A stretch of DNA of 25,355 bases from positions 1 through 25,355 of the IMG/VR virus record IMGVR_UViG_3300034375_000255. One strand, written 5' to 3'. This stretch comes from a virus. The position numbers and the translations under genes were made by a program. Below are positions 1 through 23,402 of the stretch, piece after piece. The notes under the pieces are model-generated. The model searched no databases and had not been told where the DNA came from. It saw only the letters and a program-made list of their open reading frames with translations. The stretch's first letter is position 1, and every line of letters starts with the position of its first letter.

Positions 1-3000
1 AATTCATTGTCTAGCGCATTATATCCAGCAGCCTCGAACGCCGCACGAGCTTCGTCACCCGTTACGTTCATGTTATCAAACTGTGCTACTAGGTATTCAG
101 TTTCGGCGGTTTTATCCTCGACACGACCTGCACGGGCCATAATCTCTTCGTCAGTAAGCTCTAGCCCCTCTGCCTCTGCATAGGCTTTAACTTCGGTGGG
201 GCTTAGGTAGCGAGAACCGACATACGTATTAACATACGTTACAACATCTTCTCCGGCACTGTTGAGTACTAGGTTGAGTAACTCTTCGTCGGTAGTGGCA
301 AATCCGGGGTTTTTAGCGAGTTCGTTAAGTACCTGTCCTGTACTGTGATAGTTATTGTCAACAGTACTCAGTAAGTTGTTAACAGATACTTGTTCGTCTA
401 CCCCTAACCCGGCAAGCTGTGTAGCTGCTACGTCTGACGTAATTGTACCGTTCTTTACATTATCAAGAATTGCATTGGCTTCGGGGCTAGTACGGATGAC
501 GAGATCAGCGAACGTGTCCCCTGTATATATACCTCCCGCTGTACCAAACCCTGCCACTGCCCCTAATGCCGCTGCTTGTGCCACGTTACCAAGCACATCG
601 CGATTTGGGTCAACTTGTGCAAGAACAGTCTCGACATAGAGGGTTGGCAAACCTTCTTCGATGAACTCTTGTTTGCCTTCAGATATAGATACTGACGTGC
701 CCTCCACAATTTTATCTTTTAGCCAATTAAACGCACTGGCGGTTGTACCCGCATTGTCCTTACCCAAGAACGCTTTTTCGAAGTCGTTACCGCCAAGCCC
801 GAAACTAGCTAGTGTAATTGTCGCACTAATAAGTCCTGCGCTTTGCGCTAGCTCCATAGCCGCTGATTTAGCTTCTTCTTCAGACATACCTACTGAGAGA
901 TATGTAGATAGAGCCTCATTATACGCGCTATCTGCTGCCCCACCAAAAGATTCAGCTAAGTCTAATGCAGAGGATGTACCGATACCTACACGCAACGCTG
1001 CTTGGTCAGATAGTTCTTTACCCATAGCTTGAAAAGTAGCTCTGGCTCCGGTCATTGTGCCTTTTGACGCAAGCAGCCATGGTAATTCCTGAATAATCTC
1101 GTTGCCGATTATTTCAGCTACAAACTGTTCAGGCGCTTCTTGGAACGCACCCCAAATATTACCAACACGCTCCCAGCCCTCGCCTTCCGCTAGTTTAGCA
1201 TCAATCCTACCCAACGCTTCTTGCCACTCATCAGTCTGTAGCCCTTCACCAAACTGAATTACATCATCAGCAAAAGCACCAACAGAGGAACTATTTGGAT
1301 CAAACCCTAACGTGATACTGACAAACGCATCCATGGTGCCAAGCAGTTCACCACCTGCCTTAGCGACTAGCCCACCGTAATCCCGAGCTGTATCGAAGTA
1401 GCCTGCGTCGTCGTATTTGTTAATGAAATCAACGACATCTTGACCAACTTCAGTCGCCATAACAGCTTGCGCTGCATCATCTAAACCTGCACCAATCTCT
1501 GCCCATAAACCGGGATTAGATTCACGTAGGTCGTCGTACCCAATTAGATTCCCTGTACCAATCACTGTTCTCAGTACGGAGCCGTCACTTAGCCGCTCAT
1601 TGGTAAATGCGTCAACTATCTCATAGGCACCCTCATTAGCTCTAAACCCTTCAGTGTAGTAAGCTCTCCTAACAAGCCTATTAAATTCGTTACTCCAATA
1701 AGGTGTGTTAAACTCTACTTTGCCCCACTCTAGTAGTCCGTCTGACCTAATACTTAATTTTGCGTTCCCATTGGCAATATCTTCATCAGTGACTCCCTCT
1801 GCTTTGACGGGTTCACTTCTTGTTTGTTTTAGTAGCGTACTTCCTAAATTCTTATCTACTATATCTAGGTCTTCTTGGATTATGTACTCACCGTCCACAA
1901 CATCGGTGAGGTCAACGCCATATTTAGTTAAGAATGCACGGGAATTAGCATCGATGGGTATTTCTGCGCCAGCGGCTAACTCATCTCTTAGTGAGTAATA
2001 CGTGCCAATATCTTGTACCTGTGCACCTGCGTTAGTGTTAGCAAACTGTCCCGCGAGGTCTACATACCCAATATTACGTAACGCATTAATATTTGTACCT
2101 ACTTTGTTACTAACAAACGCAGTCAGTTCTCTCATTTGTTGTGGAGTAACCCGCGTAGGATCGACGCCTAAGTCAGCTAAAACATTTGTAACTACACCGC
2201 TAAACCGTGCATCAAACTCTTCTCTAAACGCGGTCTGGTTAGTAGGTAGGTTTGCTTCTTTGCCTTCAGTCAGCCAGTGGTAATACGCATCTTCACCCGA
2301 ATCTAACCCTGCGATCTCACGGTATTCAGCTTCGTTAAAGTTCGGGTCCATAAACTCCACGAAGTTTTTATCTAGTTCTTCGTAGAGGGGTCTCAGTTCA
2401 TCATCTGCAAGTTCAACTGCGGTAGTAAGATCAGAAGTTAATACGTTATACTCTTCGGTAAGTTTAGAGAACGTTTCCTCCATCCCCGGCAGCATGTTAG
2501 CGATGTTGTCCATCTCAGCTTTAAGGTCAGGGTACTTAGTATCAAACGTACTTTCAAAATTAATATACGCGTTATACGCAGCTTCAAGCGCTGCAGTGTT
2601 CTCGCTAGACTCGTTCGCCTGAAAATTTTGCAGGGCGCGTTGGTACTCAGTTGCTAGGTTTGTAAGTGTTTCGCCATCTGCGCCAAGACTGTCTACAATT
2701 TCTCTATACCGTCCGGTTAACGCATCGTAGTTCTTACTTAGAGTGTCCATCTCCTCTGCTTTGGTTTGGACACGTTGATAATCACCCGTGATCTTGTCCA
2801 TCGTCTGAGTGATCTGGACACCTGCACTCGTGGTGTTAAACCAATTTTTAAACTCTTTATTTGCGTAAGAGTTAAGCTGATTAGCAAGCGTAGCTTCTAT
2901 GTCTCCACCACCGAATGCTGCGCTAGCTGTACGCTGCACCGCCGAAGTGATTGCCGCTATCTCTCCTTCGGAGTAACCTGTTGCGTCTTCGAAGAACCCA

Positions 3001-3692
3001 CTCACCGCATTGGTAACAGATTCGGCGGACAGAACCGCGTTCATGATAGCTTCAGGAGTTACATCTTCGCCTGTCAGTATTTTACTGAACGAAACATCTA
3101 ATACATTCTGCGCCACCTCAGGTAGTTCAGAGAACAGTCCATCCGTCTGCTCATCAACATACCCACGAATAGCAGGCATAGCTGTGGCTACACCACCTGT
3201 TATAAACGCTTGGACTGGGTCTTGCCCATAAACTATGGCTTTAGCCGCTTGCTCTGTACCTGCTTCAACGAATGTAGCAACGGCTGCGTTACCTGTTGCG
3301 CTTAGTACTGCATCGCCTGCAAGTTCACCTGTAACGTCGCCAATACCCTGTGCTGCATAAGATATAGCTGCGGCTTTTAGTGCGTCTCCAAGGTCGCCAC
3401 CTTCAGCTAGCTCCCCCGCACCGCTGATTAATGGTACTACCCACGGCGGTGCCCCCGCCGCTAACGCTGCTATTTTTAGTACCGCCTGTCCTACATCAGA
3501 ACGAAGAATGTCTCCTACACCATCACTTACAGGTTTAATTACAGCGTCGTATACGTCTCTTGCTACACCCGTTTCATGCGCGGCTATGGCTACGCCTGTA
3601 CCAATTATGGTAGCTCCTACGACACTAGCACCTAAAGCTGCTGCCCCTCCCGCAGCGGCGGCTCCGGCACCGAGGGCGATTAATACTGGCAT
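1..3692 (-). CDS. Giant virion-associated protein, N-terminal ~1230 residues (partial)
   Basis: This reading frame is open from an ATG at 3692 to the window edge with no stop, so the protein exceeds 1230 residues and its C-terminus is missing. It starts one base after the stop of the upstream gene, behind a GGAGG-type ribosome binding site. Residues 1-35 are a Gly/Ala-rich hydrophobic stretch (MPVLIALGAGAAAAGGAAAL), and further Ala/Gly-rich helical stretches follow to about residue 180. About 290-430 is heptad-rich and likely coiled coil. About 445-485 holds a DPNF...YYHWLTEGKEANLPTN segment resembling the DP-x-Y-Y...H-Y/W...G-x-x-E-x-R-x-P modules of large secreted and phage proteins. The visible end contains acidic helix-turn units such as LSPTEVKAYAEAEG and GDEARAAFEAAGY that may begin a repeat series. 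Size, lateness and membrane-active look suggest an internal virion/ejection or tail-associated protein; that role is inference. I recognise no enzymatic domain. Confidence 0.85.
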   Translation of the reverse strand, partial: MPVLIALGAGAAAAGGAAALGASVVGATIIGTGVAIAAHETGVARDVYDAVIKPVSDGVGDILRSDVGQAVLKIAALAAGAPPWVVPLISGAGELAEGGDLGDALKAAAISYAAQGIGDVTGELAGDAVLSATGNAAVATFVEAGTEQAAKAIVYGQDPVQAFITGGVATAMPAIRGYVDEQTDGLFSELPEVAQNVLDVSFSKILTGEDVTPEAIMNAVLSAESVTNAVSGFFEDATGYSEGEIAAITSAVQRTASAAFGGGDIEATLANQLNSYANKEFKNWFNTTSAGVQITQTMDKITGDYQRVQTKAEEMDTLSKNYDALTGRYREIVDSLGADGETLTNLATEYQRALQNFQANESSENTAALEAAYNAYINFESTFDTKYPDLKAEMDNIANMLPGMEETFSKLTEEYNVLTSDLTTAVELADDELRPLYEELDKNFVEFMDPNFNEAEYREIAGLDSGEDAYYHWLTEGKEANLPTNQTAFREEFDARFSGVVTNVLADLGVDPTRVTPQQMRELTAFVSNKVGTNINALRNIGYVDLAGQFANTNAGAQVQDIGTYYSLRDELAAGAEIPIDANSRAFLTKYGVDLTDVVDGEYIIQEDLDIVDKNLGSTLLKQTRSEPVKAEGVTDEDIANGNAKLSIRSDGLLEWGKVEFNTPYWSNEFNRLVRRAYYTEGFRANEGAYEIVDAFTNERLSDGSVLRTVIGTGNLIGYDDLRESNPGLWAEIGAGLDDAAQAVMATEVGQDVVDFINKYDDAGYFDTARDYGGLVAKAGGELLGTMDAFVSITLGFDPNSSSVGAFADDVIQFGEGLQTDEWQEALGRIDAKLAEGEGWERVGNIWGAFQEAPEQFVAEIIGNEIIQELPWLLASKGTMTGARATFQAMGKELSDQAALRVGIGTSSALDLAESFGGAADSAYNEALSTYLSVGMSEEEAKSAAMELAQSAGLISATITLASFGLGGNDFEKAFLGKDNAGTTASAFNWLKDKIVEGTSVSISEGKQEFIEEGLPTLYVETVLAQVDPNRDVLGNVAQAAALGAVAGFGTAGGIYTGDTFADLVIRTSPEANAILDNVKNGTITSDVAATQLAGLGVDEQVSVNNLLSTVDNNYHSTGQVLNELAKNPGFATTDEELLNLVLNSAGEDVVTYVNTYVGSRYLSPTEVKAYAEAEGLELTDEEIMARAGRVEDKTAETEYLVAQFDNMNVTGDEARAAFEAAGYNALDNE

Positions 3693-4166
3693 TTACAACC
3701 TCCAGAACTCAGCTAGTGAGTCTTCTCCAATTTTGATGAACGCACGGTAACCGCCAGTATCTAACTGTACTACATCTATTTCGGTGTCCGTACCCTCACT
3801 TTTATTGAACCAAAACTGAAACGCCGTAAGGTATTGTTTCTCGTCAAAGTCAGTACGGTAGTATTCAACACCTTTTCTTTGTAGGTACGCGATGTACTTT
3901 AGCCCATTACGCATAAAGTTTCGCGCAGTATCTAAGTTGAGCGCACGCCCTGCCATGACGTTCTTGTTCTTGCCTTTGCCACGGTGCCCGATAAACACTG
4001 TATTACCAATCTGCACCTGATCTGTATTCGGCATAGCGAGTTCTTGCGCTAGCGCAGCAATAACATTACCCACAGGACGACCTGTATTATTAAGTTCTGA
4101 CGCAGCGGTCATTATAATCTCAGGGGCTTGTAAGGGCTGCTTGGTGCTATCTACAACGGTAACCAT
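3693..4166 (-). CDS. 157-aa protein, possibly GNAT-like, unknown function
   Basis: The ATG at 4166 follows the KAS stop (4168-4170) by one base, and its ribosome binding site GGAGGTG lies inside the end of the KAS gene. The stop abuts the start of the giant gene, so the genes are cotranslated neighbours. The protein is soluble, without signal peptide or membrane segment. It has a basic motif HRGKGKNKN near residue 85 followed by a helix ending in YLQRKGVEYYRTDF, a pattern reminiscent of the small GNAT-fold proteins encoded beside internal virion proteins in T7-like phages. No definite acetyl-CoA loop is visible, so this is a weak guess. Given its place between the ACP/KAS pair and the giant gene, a role in modifying or assembling that protein is possible, but nothing in the sequence shows it. 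Confidence 0.85.
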   Translation of the reverse strand: MVTVVDSTKQPLQAPEIIMTAASELNNTGRPVGNVIAALAQELAMPNTDQVQIGNTVFIGHRGKGKNKNVMAGRALNLDTARNFMRNGLKYIAYLQRKGVEYYRTDFDEKQYLTAFQFWFNKSEGTDTEIDVVQLDTGGYRAFIKIGEDSLAEFWRL

Positions 4167-4167
4167 G

Positions 4168-5268
4168 CTACACCTCCGACGAAAACAGTGCAGCGGAATA
4201 AATATTTCCCATCCCTGCAGCGAGACTTAGGAACATATCCCCGCGTGGCGCGGTATCCTCAGACACAAAAACAGAATCCGCAGATGTGCGATTTGGTATC
4301 TTTGGAATAATCCCTTTGTTAATATCTCGCAACATGAGGTCCGTCTCCAACAATCCGCTAGCCCCCATTGTATGCCCTATGCGTGGTTTATAAGACGTAG
4401 CAATGAACTCGTTAAGAGTACGAGTTAAGGCTGTTTTTTCCGCAGCATTGTTTACCGACGTTCCGGTTCCATGCGTTTTAACCATATATACACTATTTCC
4501 GGGGGTTTTGGCTACCCATAAAGCGCCTTCTATTGCCTTACTGTATCCTGCGCCGTCTTCGCGTTGCCCCAGTGGGTTAGTGTTATCTTCTGACGCACTG
4601 TATGCCCCAAGGAATTTAGCACGTGGGGACTCGTGTGGTTCAGTCTCAAATACTGACAAAACTGCGCCCTGCCCGAGATAAAATCCTTTATTAATATCAT
4701 CAAACGAAGACGGTACAATATTGTCATCCCGTTGTATACTTGCACCCGCCTCCCCGAAAAACTCAAGAGACAAGTTGTTTACAGCATCTTCACCGCTCAG
4801 AACAATGACACGGGTAAACCCATAATTTGTTACTAAGTTATATACATCCATCAAGACTTTCAGGCTCGACGCGCAGGCACTGGCGTCCGTGGATACATGG
4901 TCAACAGGCCCAAACATACTAGCGATACGCCCTGCATAGATGTTGGTTAGTACTATGAATGGTACTTTTATTTTGTAGTGCAGCTCGGCATCTGGGTTCT
5001 TGTCGTACCGTCCGTTGTTACCCATCCAGCCTTGGTTACCAGCGGCGAAGATAAACGCTGTTTTACCAGAGGTCTTGTTATTCTGCACATACTCGCGTGT
5101 CTCTTTCGTTACAACGCTTTCTAATAGTTTGTGTGGAGGGTACGCCATGCCAGACTTTGCACGCCGAAATGTCTCTGGGATAATATGCGCATGTTGCGGG
5201 TAACGAATATCGTCCACTAGAGTAGTGGTTTCAGTGTAGGCGGTGTCACAACGAGTCAAATATATCAT
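4168..5268 (-). CDS. Beta-ketoacyl-ACP synthase (KAS I/II, FabF-like), phage-encoded
   Basis: The 366-residue protein has thiolase-fold condensing-enzyme signatures. The nucleophile is Cys132 in STDASACASSLKVLMD. The first histidine is His266 in KTHGTGTSVNNAAEKTAL. Lys294 and His299 lie in YKPRIGHTMGASGLLE, matching the K-x4-H spacing and GH-x-x-GA-x-G loop of FabF. In the family these residues catalyse decarboxylative Claisen condensation of malonyl-ACP onto an acyl chain. It is shorter than bacterial FabF (about 410 aa), mainly in the N-terminal half, and the C-terminal GFGGTN loop is altered to GMGNIYSA. Its ATG overlaps the stop of the upstream ACP gene by four bases (ATGA), so the pair is probably translationally coupled. 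No ketoreductase, dehydratase, enoyl reductase, malonyl transferase or phosphopantetheinyl transferase is in the window. An active condensing enzyme is likely; its substrate and product are unknown. Confidence 0.9.
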   Translation of the reverse strand: MIYLTRCDTAYTETTTLVDDIRYPQHAHIIPETFRRAKSGMAYPPHKLLESVVTKETREYVQNNKTSGKTAFIFAAGNQGWMGNNGRYDKNPDAELHYKIKVPFIVLTNIYAGRIASMFGPVDHVSTDASACASSLKVLMDVYNLVTNYGFTRVIVLSGEDAVNNLSLEFFGEAGASIQRDDNIVPSSFDDINKGFYLGQGAVLSVFETEPHESPRAKFLGAYSASEDNTNPLGQREDGAGYSKAIEGALWVAKTPGNSVYMVKTHGTGTSVNNAAEKTALTRTLNEFIATSYKPRIGHTMGASGLLETDLMLRDINKGIIPKIPNRTSADSVFVSEDTAPRGDMFLSLAAGMGNIYSAALFSSEV

Positions 5269-5549
5269 GCAGCCGCCCTCATAGCTTCTTCTACTGAGGC
5301 AAACTCACGGTTTTTGTGGCTGTCGATGAAATCCTTTGCGTCTTGTAGAGTAATGAGTTCGGGCGGGTTATCTGCGACTTCTTCTGGGATATCGTGCATA
5401 TCGCCAAGCATCATAAAAATCATTACAAAATCCAAGCTGTCTAACCCCATGGAAGCTAGCTCGGTGTCCATAGTCTCTGGCTTTACGTAGTCATCCAACA
5501 CAGGTTTGGATTCGCGTACTACAGCGTCAAAAAGTTCAATAAAATCCAT
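5265..5549 (-). CDS. Acyl carrier protein, phage-encoded
   Basis: A 94-residue acidic protein with the ACP fold signature. The stretch TELASMGLDSLDFVMIFMML contains the DSL motif, whose Ser38 would carry 4'-phosphopantetheine, at the start of the recognition helix. It is followed by acidic residues and the IPEE(V) turn typical of carrier proteins. The C-terminal ~20 residues (SHKNREFASVEEAMRAAA) extend past the usual fourth helix. The ATG at 5549 follows a run of six G that overlaps the end of the upstream C1q-like gene and serves as ribosome binding site. The TGA overlaps the ATG of the KAS gene. No holo-ACP synthase is visible, so the host enzyme would have to activate it. I am confident of the carrier-protein call; the pathway is unknown. 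Confidence 0.9.
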   Translation of the reverse strand: MDFIELFDAVVRESKPVLDDYVKPETMDTELASMGLDSLDFVMIFMMLGDMHDIPEEVADNPPELITLQDAKDFIDSHKNREFASVEEAMRAAA

Positions 5550-5557
5550 ATTCCCCC

Positions 5558-6181
5558 CTAGTGATTGCTAACGAACGATACTGCTACAACTGCTGACGGG
5601 ATGCCTTGGTGCGGGGCAGTGGCAGCTTCTGTGTGAAGACTAAGCGCCGTGTCATCAGTGGCCCAGTACATTTCGATATACTCATTTGTAGCAACATCTA
5701 TAGAGAAATTCCAATAGATAGGTTGATCTGAATTGCCTTTAATTGTTTGTTTTTTAGCGCCGTAAGCTACGTCTGTTCCGTTTTTGTTGATCCACGTCCA
5801 CACAGTAGCGTCAGAAGAGTTCGTGTGGTCAGTCATTAGGGTGACTTGGAAGTTATACACACCGTCTGCGCTAACCGTTATCTGTGTTTTGTCTGTGCCC
5901 TCTATTGTAACGCCGTTACCAATGTACACGTTTTCAAACTCTACAGGATACCCTGTATTCGTAGCCGCTGCGGTTTGCGCCGTAGTGCTATAGAACAAAC
6001 CACGTGGCATATAAATAAACTTACCGCCATCATCCGTAGTCAATAACGCAGACAAAACAGACGTAATCCTGTTAAAAAACAAGCGGAACACATTATCTTT
6101 CTGGTCTGTATACGGACGACTATATTCCCCCGGCGGGAGTGGTAAGGCCGGAGGTTCAGGGCGATCTAGTTGATTAGCCAT
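5558..6181 (-). CDS. Virion protein with C1q/TNF-like jelly-roll domain
   Basis: A 207-residue protein. The first 20 residues are proline-rich (PEPPALPLPPGEYSRPY) and are followed by a helix (DNVFRLFFNRITSVLSALL) probably used for virion attachment or trimerisation. Residues ~85-207 are beta-rich with a C1q-like pattern: DGVYNFQVTLMT near 107-118, a WTWINKNG strand, a YWNFSIDVATNEYIEMYWAT pair and a terminal AVVAVSFV strand. Such domains form trimers and decorate tails or fibres in many phages. The ATG at 6181 shares one base with the stop of the 628-aa upstream gene (TGATG), so the two are coupled. Receptor binding or accessory fibre is the likely role; the partner is not identifiable. Confidence 0.8.
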   Translation of the reverse strand: MANQLDRPEPPALPLPPGEYSRPYTDQKDNVFRLFFNRITSVLSALLTTDDGGKFIYMPRGLFYSTTAQTAAATNTGYPVEFENVYIGNGVTIEGTDKTQITVSADGVYNFQVTLMTDHTNSSDATVWTWINKNGTDVAYGAKKQTIKGNSDQPIYWNFSIDVATNEYIEMYWATDDTALSLHTEAATAPHQGIPSAVVAVSFVSNH

Positions 6182-8067
6182 CAGCGTCTCCCGTCAGGGC
6201 GAATATCTATCCTTGGAACTCCTAACTGCCACTGCACACCCACTGCATCGGATTCTATTTTAAACGACATCTGCCGCCCCCGCACGCGGGTGTTCACTTG
6301 CCCTGTATACTGTTCAATAGGTATTGTAGATGTACGTGTGACAGTTCCAGAATTAGAACCGCCTTCAGACGCAGGGCTATTATACCCCGATCCAGAGTTA
6401 GCAAGTGGTAGCAAGGTCATAGTTGCCACAGGAGATTCAACAGTTGAACCCGTAAATGTAAGGTCTGGCAACACGCGCCAAACAAAAGAGAATTTATCTC
6501 CAGTATCGATATCAAATTGACCCGATGTTATATACGCATTCATTCCGGCTACAGGTTGTCCCGGTGTCTCTGAATCATCGGTACCTATTTCGTGGTACAC
6601 TAAGGAATTAGAGTATGTAGCGGCAATGGGACTAGGACGTAATTCGGAATCTAACCAAGCGGTGCGCCCCATAGTACCATAGTACCAAATATTCTGGACA
6701 TAGTTATACACTACGTACCGATCAATTTCAGTTGAATCCGCGGAACAATAGAACCACCATACTTCATTGTACGCCTCGTTTGTCCCCGCATGTACTTGTA
6801 GATACTGAGATTTATTAAAATCATTAAATACATAGCGTTTAACCGTGCAGGGTAATGGCTGCACGCGCCCGTCGTACATATAAAACTTATCCAGCCCCAT
6901 CCAAAAAGACACACCCGCTGCATAGGCAGTAGCATTTTGAGACGCTATAGATATGTTATCCCCAATAAGCTGAGTGCTCCATATACCACTACCAAATCCA
7001 ACATACTGCATAGAATATAGTGTGGTATCAGTCCAAACTAGAATTTCTTGGCGAGATTGCTGTGCGGTTATAATTTCACTACCTTTAGATAGCCGAATGT
7101 CCCCTGCTTGGTTAGTATCTGAAGGCGTCCAACTAGCTATATCCTCTTGGTCTGACCACCGAATGAGCATAGGGTCTTGGGTACTACTACCTAGCGCGTT
7201 AGCACCGAAACAAAAAACAAAGCGGCTAGTATCGGATACAAGTATATAGTTTTGTACTGTAGGGACATCGGACGCTCCGGGTAACGAAGAAACCAATACC
7301 GCGCGGGAAGTAAGCCCCGCCGATATATCAGAATAATATAACCCCCCACCACGTGGGCCAAACACAAGGTCCTCTCCAAAATTACTTTGACTCCAAACGC
7401 GTAGCCCAGATAAATCAGTAGTGCTTGCGGCTCCATTACCCCACGTACCTGCGCTCCATCCCCCTGCACCCCAACCTGTTATAGCTATTACAAACTCAGG
7501 CCCAATGTTGATTTGATATTCCCCAACTGTTGATGCTCCCCCATTACCTGTGTCAGAAGAATTTGCAGTGGCGGTAGCAGTTATAGTGTAGTTGTCATTA
7601 TCTACTATAGTTACGATTTGGTATTCCGCATTTAACACATCAGCGGTAATATTACCCCCAAGAGACACTGCTCCACTAAACGTAACAAAATCTCCTTCAA
7701 GGGCACCATGATTTGCATCAGTCACAGTTAACGTTGCACTACCATCAGTAGCTGCAAAAGTTACGTCCCCTGCGGCTGTTGTATCTCGTACGGGAGTTAT
7801 GTCAAAATAGAAACCACCACGCTCAATGTAATATTTTAAGTTAGTCCCCAGACCTAACAATGTCTCTGGAGCCAAACTATTCCAATTAAACAGCGATCTA
7901 CATACCCCCTGAAAGGTGTAAACAGACACAGGTTCCCACCCACCGATTTTCTCGGGGAAGCCGTTACGGAAGCGAACTTTATCCATATCATACCAACCAC
8001 CTTCAGCGGTATAACTTGTTACTTCGCGGTTTATCCCCGGTTTAAATCTTAGTTGTTGGGTAGGCAT
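6181..8067 (-). CDS. Virion structural protein, podovirus tail-hub/propeller style
   Basis: The 628-residue protein opens with MPTQQLRFKPGINREVT and continues DKVRFRNGFPEKIGGWEP. This N-terminal signature is typical of the large structural proteins found in many podoviruses next to tail-tube and stabilisation proteins. The body is beta-rich with tryptophan- and aromatic-rich strands (GGWSAGTWGNG, RWSDQEDIASWTP, VWTDTTLYSMQYVGFGSG, NEVWWFYCSADS), consistent with a propeller. A Thr/Ala-rich insert near residues 95-180 (DGSATLTVTDANHGALEGD) is a separate beta module seen in many marine phage proteins. The C-terminus (VRGRQMSFKIESD...WQLGVPRIDIRPDGRR) resembles the conserved end of this family. 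The ribosome binding site TAGGAGG overlaps the stop of the zinc-ribbon gene. It probably forms part of the tail hub or nozzle; the match is from memory of the family pattern. Confidence 0.8.
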   Translation of the reverse strand: MPTQQLRFKPGINREVTSYTAEGGWYDMDKVRFRNGFPEKIGGWEPVSVYTFQGVCRSLFNWNSLAPETLLGLGTNLKYYIERGGFYFDITPVRDTTAAGDVTFAATDGSATLTVTDANHGALEGDFVTFSGAVSLGGNITADVLNAEYQIVTIVDNDNYTITATATANSSDTGNGGASTVGEYQINIGPEFVIAITGWGAGGWSAGTWGNGAASTTDLSGLRVWSQSNFGEDLVFGPRGGGLYYSDISAGLTSRAVLVSSLPGASDVPTVQNYILVSDTSRFVFCFGANALGSSTQDPMLIRWSDQEDIASWTPSDTNQAGDIRLSKGSEIITAQQSRQEILVWTDTTLYSMQYVGFGSGIWSTQLIGDNISIASQNATAYAAGVSFWMGLDKFYMYDGRVQPLPCTVKRYVFNDFNKSQYLQVHAGTNEAYNEVWWFYCSADSTEIDRYVVYNYVQNIWYYGTMGRTAWLDSELRPSPIAATYSNSLVYHEIGTDDSETPGQPVAGMNAYITSGQFDIDTGDKFSFVWRVLPDLTFTGSTVESPVATMTLLPLANSGSGYNSPASEGGSNSGTVTRTSTIPIEQYTGQVNTRVRGRQMSFKIESDAVGVQWQLGVPRIDIRPDGRR

Positions 8068-14448: not shown

Positions 14449-14877
14449 CTATGCCGCCACTTCTGTCCAAATTGTTTCGGTGGAAGGTGTTATCTCAGTA
14501 TAGCTTGTTCCGGGGCTTGGAGCAATGGTTGTATACACGGTGCCGGGACTTGGAGCAATGGTTGTATACACGGTGCCGGGACTTGGAGCAATGGGTGTAT
14601 ACACGGTGCCGGGACTTGGAATTATTTCGCCCCAAATAAAAGGTATTCCAATCTGTCCTACAGCTGCTACGCCAGTCAAAGAAACAATAGCGTCACTTGT
14701 GACGGTAACCTCACCGACATCGGGGACAGCTGAAAGTCCTGTTACATCAATAACTGCCGATGCTTCAACTGTAACCTCACCGACAGAAACAACTGCTTCT
14801 AAACCTTCTAAGTAAACAACTGCGTTTCTGCCATCTTCCGCTAAGGGGATGGAAGATATCGGCATAAACCCAAGCAT
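14449..14877 (-). CDS. Repeat-containing 142-aa protein
   Basis: The ATG at 14877 has an excellent AAAGGAG ribosome binding site. Residues ~20-80 contain two copies of a ~23-residue unit built on VGEVTV (VVSVGEVTVEASAVIDVTG and VPDVGEVTVTSDAIVSLTG). Residues ~88-125 contain four copies of an 11-residue unit, SPGTVYTTIAP and variants (SPGTVYTPIAP, SPGTSYTEITP), encoded by 33-base direct repeats. The pattern is extended beta with proline-glycine turns. It sits between a helical small protein and a fibre gene and is probably a fibre segment or decoration protein. The repeat number may vary between relatives. Confidence 0.75.
   Translation of the reverse strand: MLGFMPISSIPLAEDGRNAVVYLEGLEAVVSVGEVTVEASAVIDVTGLSAVPDVGEVTVTSDAIVSLTGVAAVGQIGIPFIWGEIIPSPGTVYTPIAPSPGTVYTTIAPSPGTVYTTIAPSPGTSYTEITPSTETIWTEVAA
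14515..14613 (-). repeat. 33-bp direct tandem repeat, 3 near-perfect copies
   Basis: Three contiguous 33-base units lie at 14515-14547, 14548-14580 and 14581-14613. They differ at single positions (a G for A at the first base of unit 1, a G for T near the middle of unit 3), with partial copies on both sides. They are in frame and encode an 11-residue unit (SPGTVYTTIAP). The near identity points to recent duplication by slippage. Confidence 0.9.
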
Positions 14878-15146: not shown

Positions 15147-17420
15147 TTAGTTTCCTTCTAGTGTAGCTATACGCGCCTCTAGCGCATCACATTTAGCCGA
15201 CAACTCTTGCACGGCTTTTACAAGAATAGGATACGATCTAACGTAATCCGCTTCTAACTTTTCTGGGTTCGCCCAATTCACTAAGCGTGTGCGTGATGAC
15301 GATGAGTGGTCTAGCTCAACATCGTGCAACTCTTGCGCAATAAAGCCAATGTCTGGCTTTGCACCTAGTGACCCATCGCGGCGGTTCCAAGTGAACTGCA
15401 CAGGACGCATGTCGTTGATGAAATCTAGGCCATACGGAATGTCTGCGATTGCAGTCTTATCGCGCTCATCAGACAGGCTGCTTATTGTCTGAACATTGCA
15501 GCGCAGTGAGGTTATATTATTATCGCCAAGGGTGATTTCGTTTGTTGCAGTTGCACCACTAGGCATGGCCTCAAAACCAATGACTGTAACATTTGAGCCT
15601 GTTGTTAGTGCGTTTGTGGAAGAACCACCTTGTTGATACCCCGCATTTCTGCCGACAAGTGTATTATTTGATCCCGTACTGACACTAAAACCAGCACTAG
15701 TACCGCAAGCTACATTACTATCCCCTGACGTTACAGATTTTAAAGCACTGTTACCAAATCCTGAGTTTGCCCCGCCTGACGATAATGTGTATAAAGACGA
15801 CACGCCAACTCCTACATTAGCGTTGGCTGTCCCGCCAGAGTAACCTGCGTCATAACCCACAAAAATGTTGTAATCGCCGCCATCTAAATCATAGCCAGCT
15901 TGATAGCCTATCGCTACATTATAATAGCTATCATCGGTAGCACTCCCCATCACTTGGTAGCCAATGGATACGCTCTGGGTTGTTCCGCGCGAGTTTCCTC
16001 CGATAATAACTGCATTCGCGGTTGATGTGGATAATACATTTGATTGGTAACCTGCAATCGTATTATAGTCCCCACTAAATAAGGCACTGCCTGAACCATA
16101 ACCGATGGCTACGTTATAATATGGGTTGCCTGTGGAGCTACGTCCCAAAGCATCATAACCTATAGCAACTGAATTAACATGGAAGCCATCTGACATTGAT
16201 AAAGCGCCAACGGCTACTGACCTATCTCCAGTGCAGTCATCCATTGCGAGATAGCCAACTGCTACTTGGTAGTCTTTACTATCCGCATCTATATTCCCTG
16301 CATTGTAACCAAGATAAGTGCCGCCAGTTAAAAAATCACCACCGCCACTACCTACGCCAACCGCAGTTGAATAGCTATCTGTGGTATTCTGCGCCATGCT
16401 ATTTTGACCCACCGCCACATTATAAAAAGCTGTGGTTAGTGCGCCCCCAGCATTATATCCTAACAATACATGGCCACTACCTGTAGTTATTTCATCACCT
16501 GTGCGATTTCCTATCGCTACTGAAAAGCCGCCTGTTGTCGCATTTTGTAAGCAATTACGTCCAATAGCTACGTTATAGCTACCCCCAGATGACGTAAGGC
16601 TTTCCAGTGCGCCATCGCCTATTGCAATATTATCTGTATTAAGATCATCAGGCCATGCGCTTTGCCACAGCATCGCCGTGCCAGTTTGGTCAGGCAGCGT
16701 AATCGTGCGGTCAGCAGTTGGGTCAGTAACGGTTACAGTGGTTTCAAAGTCGTCTGCTGTTGCGCCTTCGAAGATGATATTTTCGGTCAAGTAAATCCGA
16801 CCTTCTACATCAATGCCTGTTGACGCGGTGTTTAGTTTTAATGATGAAAAACCAGTAGATTGATCTGTATATCTAAGCTGCGCTTCCCCACTTGTTCCAT
16901 CTGCTATTAATAAAGAAGCATAGCCGCCATTATTATTTTCTGCACCAATAAAAACACCTTTATTTGCAGCATGGTTTGTGATGTAAAGGTTGCCAGTGTT
17001 GTTGTCTATAACTCCTGATATTAAACCAGAGCTATGACTGATTTCTAGATCGGAACCATCCCCAAAGACAGCTTTGTCATTGTCGCCAAAAGATACATCC
17101 CCAGTAAACGCCCCGCCACTCGCTGGCACAATATCTTCTGCCGCCGCCGTAATAAACACAACTGCATCGCCCGACAAATCAAGCAATGCGCCCGTTGAAC
17201 TTTCTGTCAGTGTGCGTGAAAGCGTTGTTCCTGTGGCCGTATATGTACCTGTCCCAATTTCCCAGCTATCGCCATCTTCTATTGTGTAACGTACACTGTC
17301 GCCATCAGATACACCGCCATCAGCAAACGATTGATAACCTGTTTCGGCACTGCCTAGTGTGATGGTGCCTGTTCCAGTTGTGGACGTAGCGACCTTAACG
17401 CGATTGGCTAGAACAACCAT
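15147..17420 (-). CDS. Tail fibre with YadA-like head repeats and C-terminal S74 chaperone
   Basis: A 757-residue fibre. Residues 1-100 form a beta-rich attachment region ([40 protein letters not shown]). About 257-615 hold many short repeats of the form [13 protein letters not shown], with variants such as [11 protein letters not shown] and [14 protein letters not shown], resembling the left-handed head repeats of trimeric autotransporters. From about residue 650 a peptidase S74 intramolecular chaperone begins at SSLSDERDK, with Ser650 the expected self-cleavage nucleophile, followed by [17 protein letters not shown] and [11 protein letters not shown], then a terminal coiled coil ([20 protein letters not shown]). 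In this family the chaperone trimerises the fibre and then cuts itself off. It is probably a host-recognition fibre. Confidence 0.9.
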
Positions 17421-22345: not shown

Positions 22346-22923
22346 AGTGCTTCAAACGCTCCGAATGTGATGCCGTAAATGCTGGCCTCATTGACTGACC
22401 AGCTTTGCTGATTGCTTGCAAGTCTAAATGTACCTGATGCACTGGTCAAATCCGCTGTAGCTGATGATGCTGCATCGCGTAGCGCGGGCCATATCTCAAG
22501 TGTGCCGCTGCCGCTTTGATCTTCCAGAACCTTGTATAGGCGTGTACTTGTGCCTGTGCCTAATGAGAAATAATCGCCAGCTTTTAGCGTACCCGTCATC
22601 GCCACAGTTACGCTGCGATCCCCAACTGAGCCTGTGATAGTCGCAGAAGTCGCTGTGCCGCGCACTGAGGTGGCAGAAGGGTCATTTAGTAAGAATGTAC
22701 CGAACTGACCGCGTAAGCTCATCAGGAAGGCAATCCACTGATCTGCGTCGGCGCGTTTCATTGGTGGCAGTGTAATATCAGCTTGCCATGCTTCGCCGCT
22801 GTAAGCGTGGGCCTGACCTTTTAGCGTGAAAGGCGACTGACTATAGGCAACCGTATTGACCGCCCGTAGTTCAATAGAAGCAATGCCCGTATGTGACGGC
22901 AGGGTTAAGGGGTACGAAATCAT
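22342..22923 (-). CDS. Minor tail protein, distal tail (Dit)-like position
   Basis: I prefer the ATG at 22923, because GGGAG lies six bases upstream and its ATGA overlaps the HNH stop; the in-frame ATG at 22929 has the ribosome binding site too close. The ~193-residue beta-rich protein has TLPSHTGIASIELRAVNTVA, then an ADITLPPMKRADADQWIAFL helix and FGTFLLNDPSA. These are features shared by short tail proteins that follow the tape measure in marine phages and probably form the first tail-tip ring. The middle carries a Thr/Ser-rich beta insert (SATITGSVGDRSVTVAMTG). Confidence 0.75.
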   Translation of the reverse strand: MISYPLTLPSHTGIASIELRAVNTVAYSQSPFTLKGQAHAYSGEAWQADITLPPMKRADADQWIAFLMSLRGQFGTFLLNDPSATSVRGTATSATITGSVGDRSVTVAMTGTLKAGDYFSLGTGTSTRLYKVLEDQSGSGTLEIWPALRDAASSATADLTSASGTFRLASNQQSWSVNEASIYGITFGAFEAL

Positions 22924-23402
22924 GTCCATCTCCCATGATTTTTGTGATACATGTTTTCACATTCAGCACTTTTTCTCATACGAACTGCCTCCGCGAAACA
23001 ACCAGAATACCCAACATACTGACTTCCAATCCGAACCTTCCATCCTTTTTGGTGATGATTAATGCCAAGAATACCGCTTCTGTTATCGGCTCTGCGCTTT
23101 ATATTCCTTGCATTCTGTGTTCTTGAAGCACCTCTAAGATTTTTAATGTTATTGTTATCTGGATTGCCATCAATGTGGTCAACTTCATCAGGCCAATAAC
23201 CGTGATGAATAGCAAATATTACTCTATGCTGAAGTAACCTTTCACCGCAAAAGCCTATATACCAATAGCCATTTTTCTTTTTATCGCCAGCTATTTTACC
23301 CGCCCAACGTCTTGTTGCAGACTTAGTTTTAAGTTTGTTTTTCCAGATCAACTTACCATCTTGATATCTAAGATATTTTTTTAATTCAGATATAGAAGCC
23401 AT
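22920..23402 (-). CDS. HNH homing endonuclease with AP2-like DNA-binding domain
   Basis: A 160-residue protein. The HNH core is HRVIFAIHHGYWPDEVDHID with GNPDNNNIKNLR and SRTQNARN, giving the His/Asp-His/Asn pattern of metal-dependent phage homing nucleases. A basic N-terminal segment (KNKLKTKSATRRWAGKIAGD) and a C-terminal AP2-like domain (SGILGINHHQKGWKVRIGSQ) provide DNA binding. The ATG shares a base with the tape-measure stop (TAATG) and the stop overlaps the next gene's ATG (ATGA), so the element is fitted cleanly between two genes. Its coding region looks A+T-richer than its neighbours, consistent with recent arrival. Confidence 0.92.
   Translation of the reverse strand: MASISELKKYLRYQDGKLIWKNKLKTKSATRRWAGKIAGDKKKNGYWYIGFCGERLLQHRVIFAIHHGYWPDEVDHIDGNPDNNNIKNLRGASRTQNARNIKRRADNRSGILGINHHQKGWKVRIGSQYVGYSGCFAEAVRMRKSAECENMYHKNHGRWT

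Follow-up and report, generated by a model that had tools for sequence, protein, structure and literature searches.

A phage acyl carrier protein and ketoacyl synthase pair and its predicted GNAT-fold neighbour in a viral gene cluster

Why a phage should encode both an acyl carrier protein (ACP) and a beta-ketoacyl-ACP synthase (KAS) among its virion genes, and where an acyl chain made by such a pair would end, are the questions raised by the locus described here. The window, which is the whole stretch of viral DNA that was analysed (25,355 nucleotides, IMG/VR record IMGVR_UViG_3300034375_000255), carries the pair in a cluster that is transcribed from the minus strand in the following order:

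6181–8067, minus strand: 628-aa virion structural protein (phrog_3287), whose homologues are annotated as phage stabilization or needle head proteins and which has relatives in Roseobacter and Pelagibacter phages
5558–6181, minus strand: 207-aa protein, weakly BclA/C1q-like, upstream neighbour of the ACP
5265–5549, minus strand: ACP, 94 aa, with the phosphopantetheine site Asp37-Ser38-Leu39-Asp40 (DSLD)
4168–5268, minus strand: KAS I/II-like enzyme, 366 aa, with Cys132, His266, Lys294 and His299
3693–4166, minus strand: predicted GNAT-fold protein, 157 aa, candidate acyltransferase, in which the canonical CoA loop is absent
3–3692, minus strand: giant protein of at least 1230 aa, first gene after the GNAT-fold gene, which runs off the window

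The gene cluster and its contig

The first-pass annotation of this DNA had described an ACP with an intact Ser38 that overlaps a condensing enzyme by ATGA, and both reading frames are present at these places on the minus strand. The ATGA at 5265–5268 contains the stop codon of the ACP gene and the start codon of the KAS gene, which gives a four-base overlap, and the four catalytic residues named for the KAS are all found. The same annotation had set the pair between a C1q-like virion protein and a giant protein. These neighbours are there, but the 157-aa gene at 3693–4166 had been overlooked and the C1q assignment is weak (BclA_C 0.001, C1q 0.08). The gene of the 207-aa protein is present in most relatives and absent from some. 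The cluster is presumably a late one, as its timing is read from gene position.

Between 1481 and about 17117 the window is 97.4% identical to a related contig (L265); the two then diverge inside a tail-fibre gene (window 15147–17420). Beyond about 17.1 kb the window has siphovirus J and tape-measure genes, while L265 has different tail genes without J, so the window is either a recombinant or a chimeric assembly near 17117. The ACP–KAS finding does not depend on this junction. Two minor features of the window are a 142-aa open reading frame at 14449–14877 with short tandem repeats (SPGTVYTTIAP) and an HNH endonuclease gene at 22920–23402 (phrog_99, E=1e-46), which lies between the tape-measure and distal tail genes and is probably of the homing type.

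The ACP and KAS families

The profile search of both proteins that was proposed in the first-pass annotation gives a clear result for the KAS and a weak one for the ACP. The KAS matches both halves of its Pfam family above cut-off (Ketoacyl-synt_C, E=1.4e-15; ketoacyl-synt, E=7.7e-8), and it matches the FabF model with E=4.9e-26, although its 91 bits fall far short of the 494 that are the cut-off for FabF. Its best PDB relatives are FabF/KasA-type enzymes, which align over residues 100 to 330 approximately. The ACP taken alone has weak matches (PP-binding, 0.025; TIGR00517, 4.4e-6), and a profile built from 14 members finds carrier proteins in all of the 60 PDB matches listed. The predicted structure of the KAS is poor (pLDDT 49.5), and its PDB matches are KAS enzymes with low TM.

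When viral contigs were scanned with the KAS, 321 relatives came up and 80 of them were kept; a second scan, which used the homologue of phage ctpbd312 as query, gave 66 loci. The ACP gene is directly upstream of the KAS gene in every one of the first 82 loci, with the four-base overlap in 81 of them. In the wider set, which includes a bacterial comparator (L083), an ACP match is found at 143 of 146 distinct KAS; two of the three exceptions are cut near a contig or locus edge and the third is the comparator itself. The overlap is seen here in 120 of the 143 pairs, a set in which the automatic choice of start codons varies. The survey suggested for the pair thus finds it at over 140 distinct phage loci, so that its occurrence is not due to chance and it belongs to many uncultured phages of aquatic origin. 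In one locus (L013:266-1645) the frames of both ACP and KAS are broken, by sequence error or decay, and the KAS frame begins only far beyond the normal start site.

Conservation is concentrated at the residues expected to act. Cys132, His266, Lys294 and His299 are invariant in 139 of 139 distinct phage KAS, whose minimum pairwise identity is 44%, and Asp-Ser is kept in 130 of 130 distinct ACPs. D37, S38, L39, D40 and K79 are the only invariant positions of a 14-row ACP alignment (most rows at 29–48% identity). Where dN/dS could be computed it is 0.03–0.08 for the KAS and 0.03–0.14 for the ACP, several of these comparisons being at saturated or nearly saturated dS. Between the window and ctpbd312 the KAS is the best conserved protein of the cluster (52%), followed by the ACP (33%) and the 157-aa protein (28%). 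To judge from these sequences, ACP–KAS is a genuine, widespread, phage-only module, which is very probably catalytic.

Identity of the KAS to the bacterial FabF used as comparator is about 20%, and the gate GFGG near the C-terminus is replaced by GMG, as nearly all phage KAS read AAGMGN where the comparator reads SFGFGG. Because of this replacement the phage KAS is classed as a divergent enzyme of the KS family and not as FabF or FabB, and ordinary chain elongation by it is not assured. The AAGMGN gate is a hint that the acyl pocket or the reaction has changed.

Queried with the KAS, 84,980 prokaryote genomes yielded a single match, a bacterial FabF-like protein at 25%. A tree was built with 21 cellular KAS, sampled from one phylum. 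The 32 phage KAS in it fall together with 100/100 support and are set off from the cellular ones by a very long branch; the program gave a long-branch warning. By this tree the phage KAS is a deep phage-only clade. Recent acquisition from a host was rejected on the tree and on the otherwise empty genome scan, so that the gene is unlikely to be a recent host copy. Further matches in phage collections, at 25–30% identity, are mostly unannotated records or carry fabB-like annotations, and they were not counted as relatives.

The GNAT-fold protein and natural variants of the module

The sequence of the 157-aa protein has no convincing match in Pfam, PHROG, NCBIfam or PDB. Its AlphaFold2 model is confident (pLDDT 92.3, pTM 0.86) and has the order helix-helix-three strands-helix-strand-helix-two strands. 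Compared with the PDB by Foldseek, this model matches GNAT enzymes almost exclusively, although the scores are modest (best E 8e-4, TM about 0.5); viral models of the same kind match it up to TM 0.83. In GNAT enzymes the junction of strand 4 and helix 3 is where the acyl donor is held. The alignment of the family has there an invariant Asp79-Thr80-x-x-Asn83-Phe84, and the junction reads GRA(L/F)NxDTxxNF, while the CoA pyrophosphate loop R/Q-x-x-G-x-G/A is absent. By its model the 157-aa protein is a candidate acyltransferase with a GNAT fold.

The absence of CoA-binding elements sets apart the RtxC acyltransferases, which have a GNAT fold and depend on acyl-ACP, according to PMC8339906. HlyC/RtxC and CdiC share with the phage system a GNAT fold that lacks CoA elements, an acyl-ACP donor, and a gene beside that of a giant exported protein (PMC8339906, PMC8510554, accessible parts), and these parts mention no dedicated ACP–KAS pair. 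No sequence similarity to them is seen in the 157-aa protein. In its alignment Asp79 and Asp127 are invariant but no His is, and it is not filed as a member of the HlyC family because the His/Asp dyad is not conserved.

The usual gene order in relatives is ACP, KAS, GNAT and giant protein. A scan started from the ACP gave 129 loci with ACP-KAS-GNAT, 5 with ACP-GNAT and 3 with ACP-KAS; away from contig ends it found no orphan ACP, as KAS or GNAT is always next. ACP and GNAT are adjacent without KAS in five distinct loci from at least three lineages (L098, L103, L134, L345, L346), and GNAT and giant protein occur without ACP and KAS in three (L139, L147, L156). ACP and KAS without an adjacent GNAT are found in one lineage (L180, L184, L185, L190, L267; 3 distinct). 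None of its contigs exceeds 13.5 kb, and the genomes may have a GNAT gene elsewhere. In this lineage (in L180, the stretch 2262-5690) the pair has a SNF2-type helicase gene on one side and small genes on the other, one of unknown family and one with DUF3310, and it is upstream of a terminase-like gene, in a region that looks early or replication-like and is away from virion genes.

As both ACP-KAS without GNAT and GNAT without ACP and KAS occur, the three genes are separable. The ACP, whose partner is KAS, GNAT or the two together, is the hub of the arrangement, and this is the main evidence for a chain that would run from KAS through ACP to GNAT. The same variation implies that virion acylation is not the sole role of the pair. 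The link to virion genes drawn in the first-pass annotation fits the window and its late cluster, but it is not general, since the helicase-associated lineage departs from it.

The slot is also filled in the Roseobacter phage CRP-901, by a canonical GNAT (gp34, L227:13957-14391) that precedes ejection-type genes. ACP and KAS are absent there, and no sequence kinship between this GNAT and the 157-aa protein is detectable. Because this GNAT is different and canonical, a GNAT in the slot may serve another purpose, and it may be a general feature of the slot which the ACP module has joined.

Possible roles of the module

The evidence leans modestly towards a working, phage-specific acyl-ACP module which in most of these phages feeds the neighbouring GNAT-type transferase. 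A host phosphopantetheinyl transferase (PPTase) would arm Ser38 of the phage ACP, and malonyl groups would come from host FabD or by self-loading. The phage KAS would condense these groups onto an acyl starter, so that a chain is made or extended on the phage's own ACP, where it may be completed by reductases of the host. Once loaded, the ACP would in most of these phages be the donor for the GNAT-fold protein, which would move the chain to an amine on a protein, of the virion or of the host, or on a small molecule. The arrangement suggests that the virus builds and places a special acyl chain during infection. No PPTase was found in 17 records of relatives, and 10 records, contigs of 57–65 kb among them, gave neither a FabG- nor a FabD-type family; all three families were detected in control genomes. 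With none of them found in these records, arming and loading of the ACP must fall to host enzymes, as must any reduction of the product.

A possible but rather unlikely alternative is an auxiliary module of lipid metabolism, in which KAS and ACP alter the length or amount of fatty acids in the host membrane and the GNAT is an unrelated virion gene of the late operon. Host fatty acid synthesis enzymes could act on an acyl chain carried by the phage ACP. The non-virion setting of the pair in L180, L184, L185 and L190 and the occurrence of GNAT-fold genes in the slot without ACP or KAS fit this alternative, whereas an ACP that serves only KAS would not explain why it directly precedes GNAT in the five loci that lack KAS. 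It is improbable that the product is a small diffusible acyl compound (an AHL-like signal, an N-acyl amine or a short beta-keto product), with the GNAT as an N-acyl synthase. The synthases of AHL and of N-acyl amino acids have a GNAT fold and use acyl-ACP, and one AHL synthase, TofI, appears in the Foldseek matches of the 157-aa model (rank 44, E=6e-3); however, most of these matches are ordinary acetyltransferases, the tight spacing to the giant virion-type protein points to a protein partner, and no receptor or regulator gene is seen beside the module.

It is highly improbable that KAS, ACP and GNAT-fold protein are non-catalytic, either as packaged internal proteins or as decoys that sequester host partners of fatty acid synthesis. 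Their place among virion genes would suit such a role, and the poor KAS model does not reveal the geometry of the site, but strong purifying selection and the strict invariance of the catalytic residues and of the ACP serine argue for enzymes.

Bacterial type II AcpP and FabF/FabB share with the phage pair the fold family, the Cys-His-Lys-His residues and the gene order acpP then fabF; the phage KAS differs in being shorter, in its low identity and changed gate, and in that no other fab genes were found nearby. Phage-encoded ACPs have for years been noted as auxiliary genes of unclear function (PMC5463345, PMC11705849, PMC8224337). The passages on phages such as R6L and R22Y name an ACP and no KAS. 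Prophage regions in Roseobacter have fabG-acpP-fabF trios in the order of the E. coli fab operon, and fabF is among listed viral metabolic genes. A homologue of the phage KAS is already in PHROGs, without function there (phrog_35856). In phage ctpbd312 (MW202545) the KAS, 52% identical, is likewise flanked by an ACP in front and a homologue of the 157-aa protein behind; it is the only one of the three that is named, both partners being annotated as hypothetical. The literature searched, in which few subscription journals were covered, holds no description of the ACP–KAS pair or of the trio with GNAT, in agreement with the first-pass annotation, which knew of no characterised phage system of this form. 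With the present data, from hundreds of viral contigs, the phage ACP gains a fixed partner in the phage-only KAS, on which purifying selection is strong, and in most cases a candidate transferase too; the role of a viral acyl-ACP becomes directly testable.

The recipient of the chain may be the giant protein. Its position suggests an ejection-type virion protein, as the order after a stabilization-type protein and GNAT resembles the ejection-protein loci of podoviruses, and a 65-kb relative encodes a podovirus-type head-tail adaptor or portal and further giant proteins. Where its end was found, the giant protein has 309 to 2484 aa, the short ones being perhaps frame breaks or split genes, and its N-terminus has a hydrophobic or amphipathic stretch, often with a WAIPLIDGA-like segment. 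By analogy with the acylation of RTX proteins or CdiA, a chain made by KAS and ACP might be put by a CoA-independent GNAT-fold enzyme on the adjacent giant protein, giving a membrane-active acylated virion protein, a reading which is doubtful. The first-pass annotation had raised the acylation of a virion protein; the GNAT-fold protein encoded right after KAS supplies the candidate enzyme for acyl transfer to a protein, but no universally conserved lysine target is seen at the N-terminus of the giant protein across relatives, and virion acylation by the module is possible and unproven. Should a virion protein indeed be where the chain ends, phages would have a new means of engaging the membranes of their hosts. 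Near the end of its late cluster, a 65-kb relative encodes a 2271-aa protein with a DarB-like antirestriction match (L091:7735-14550).
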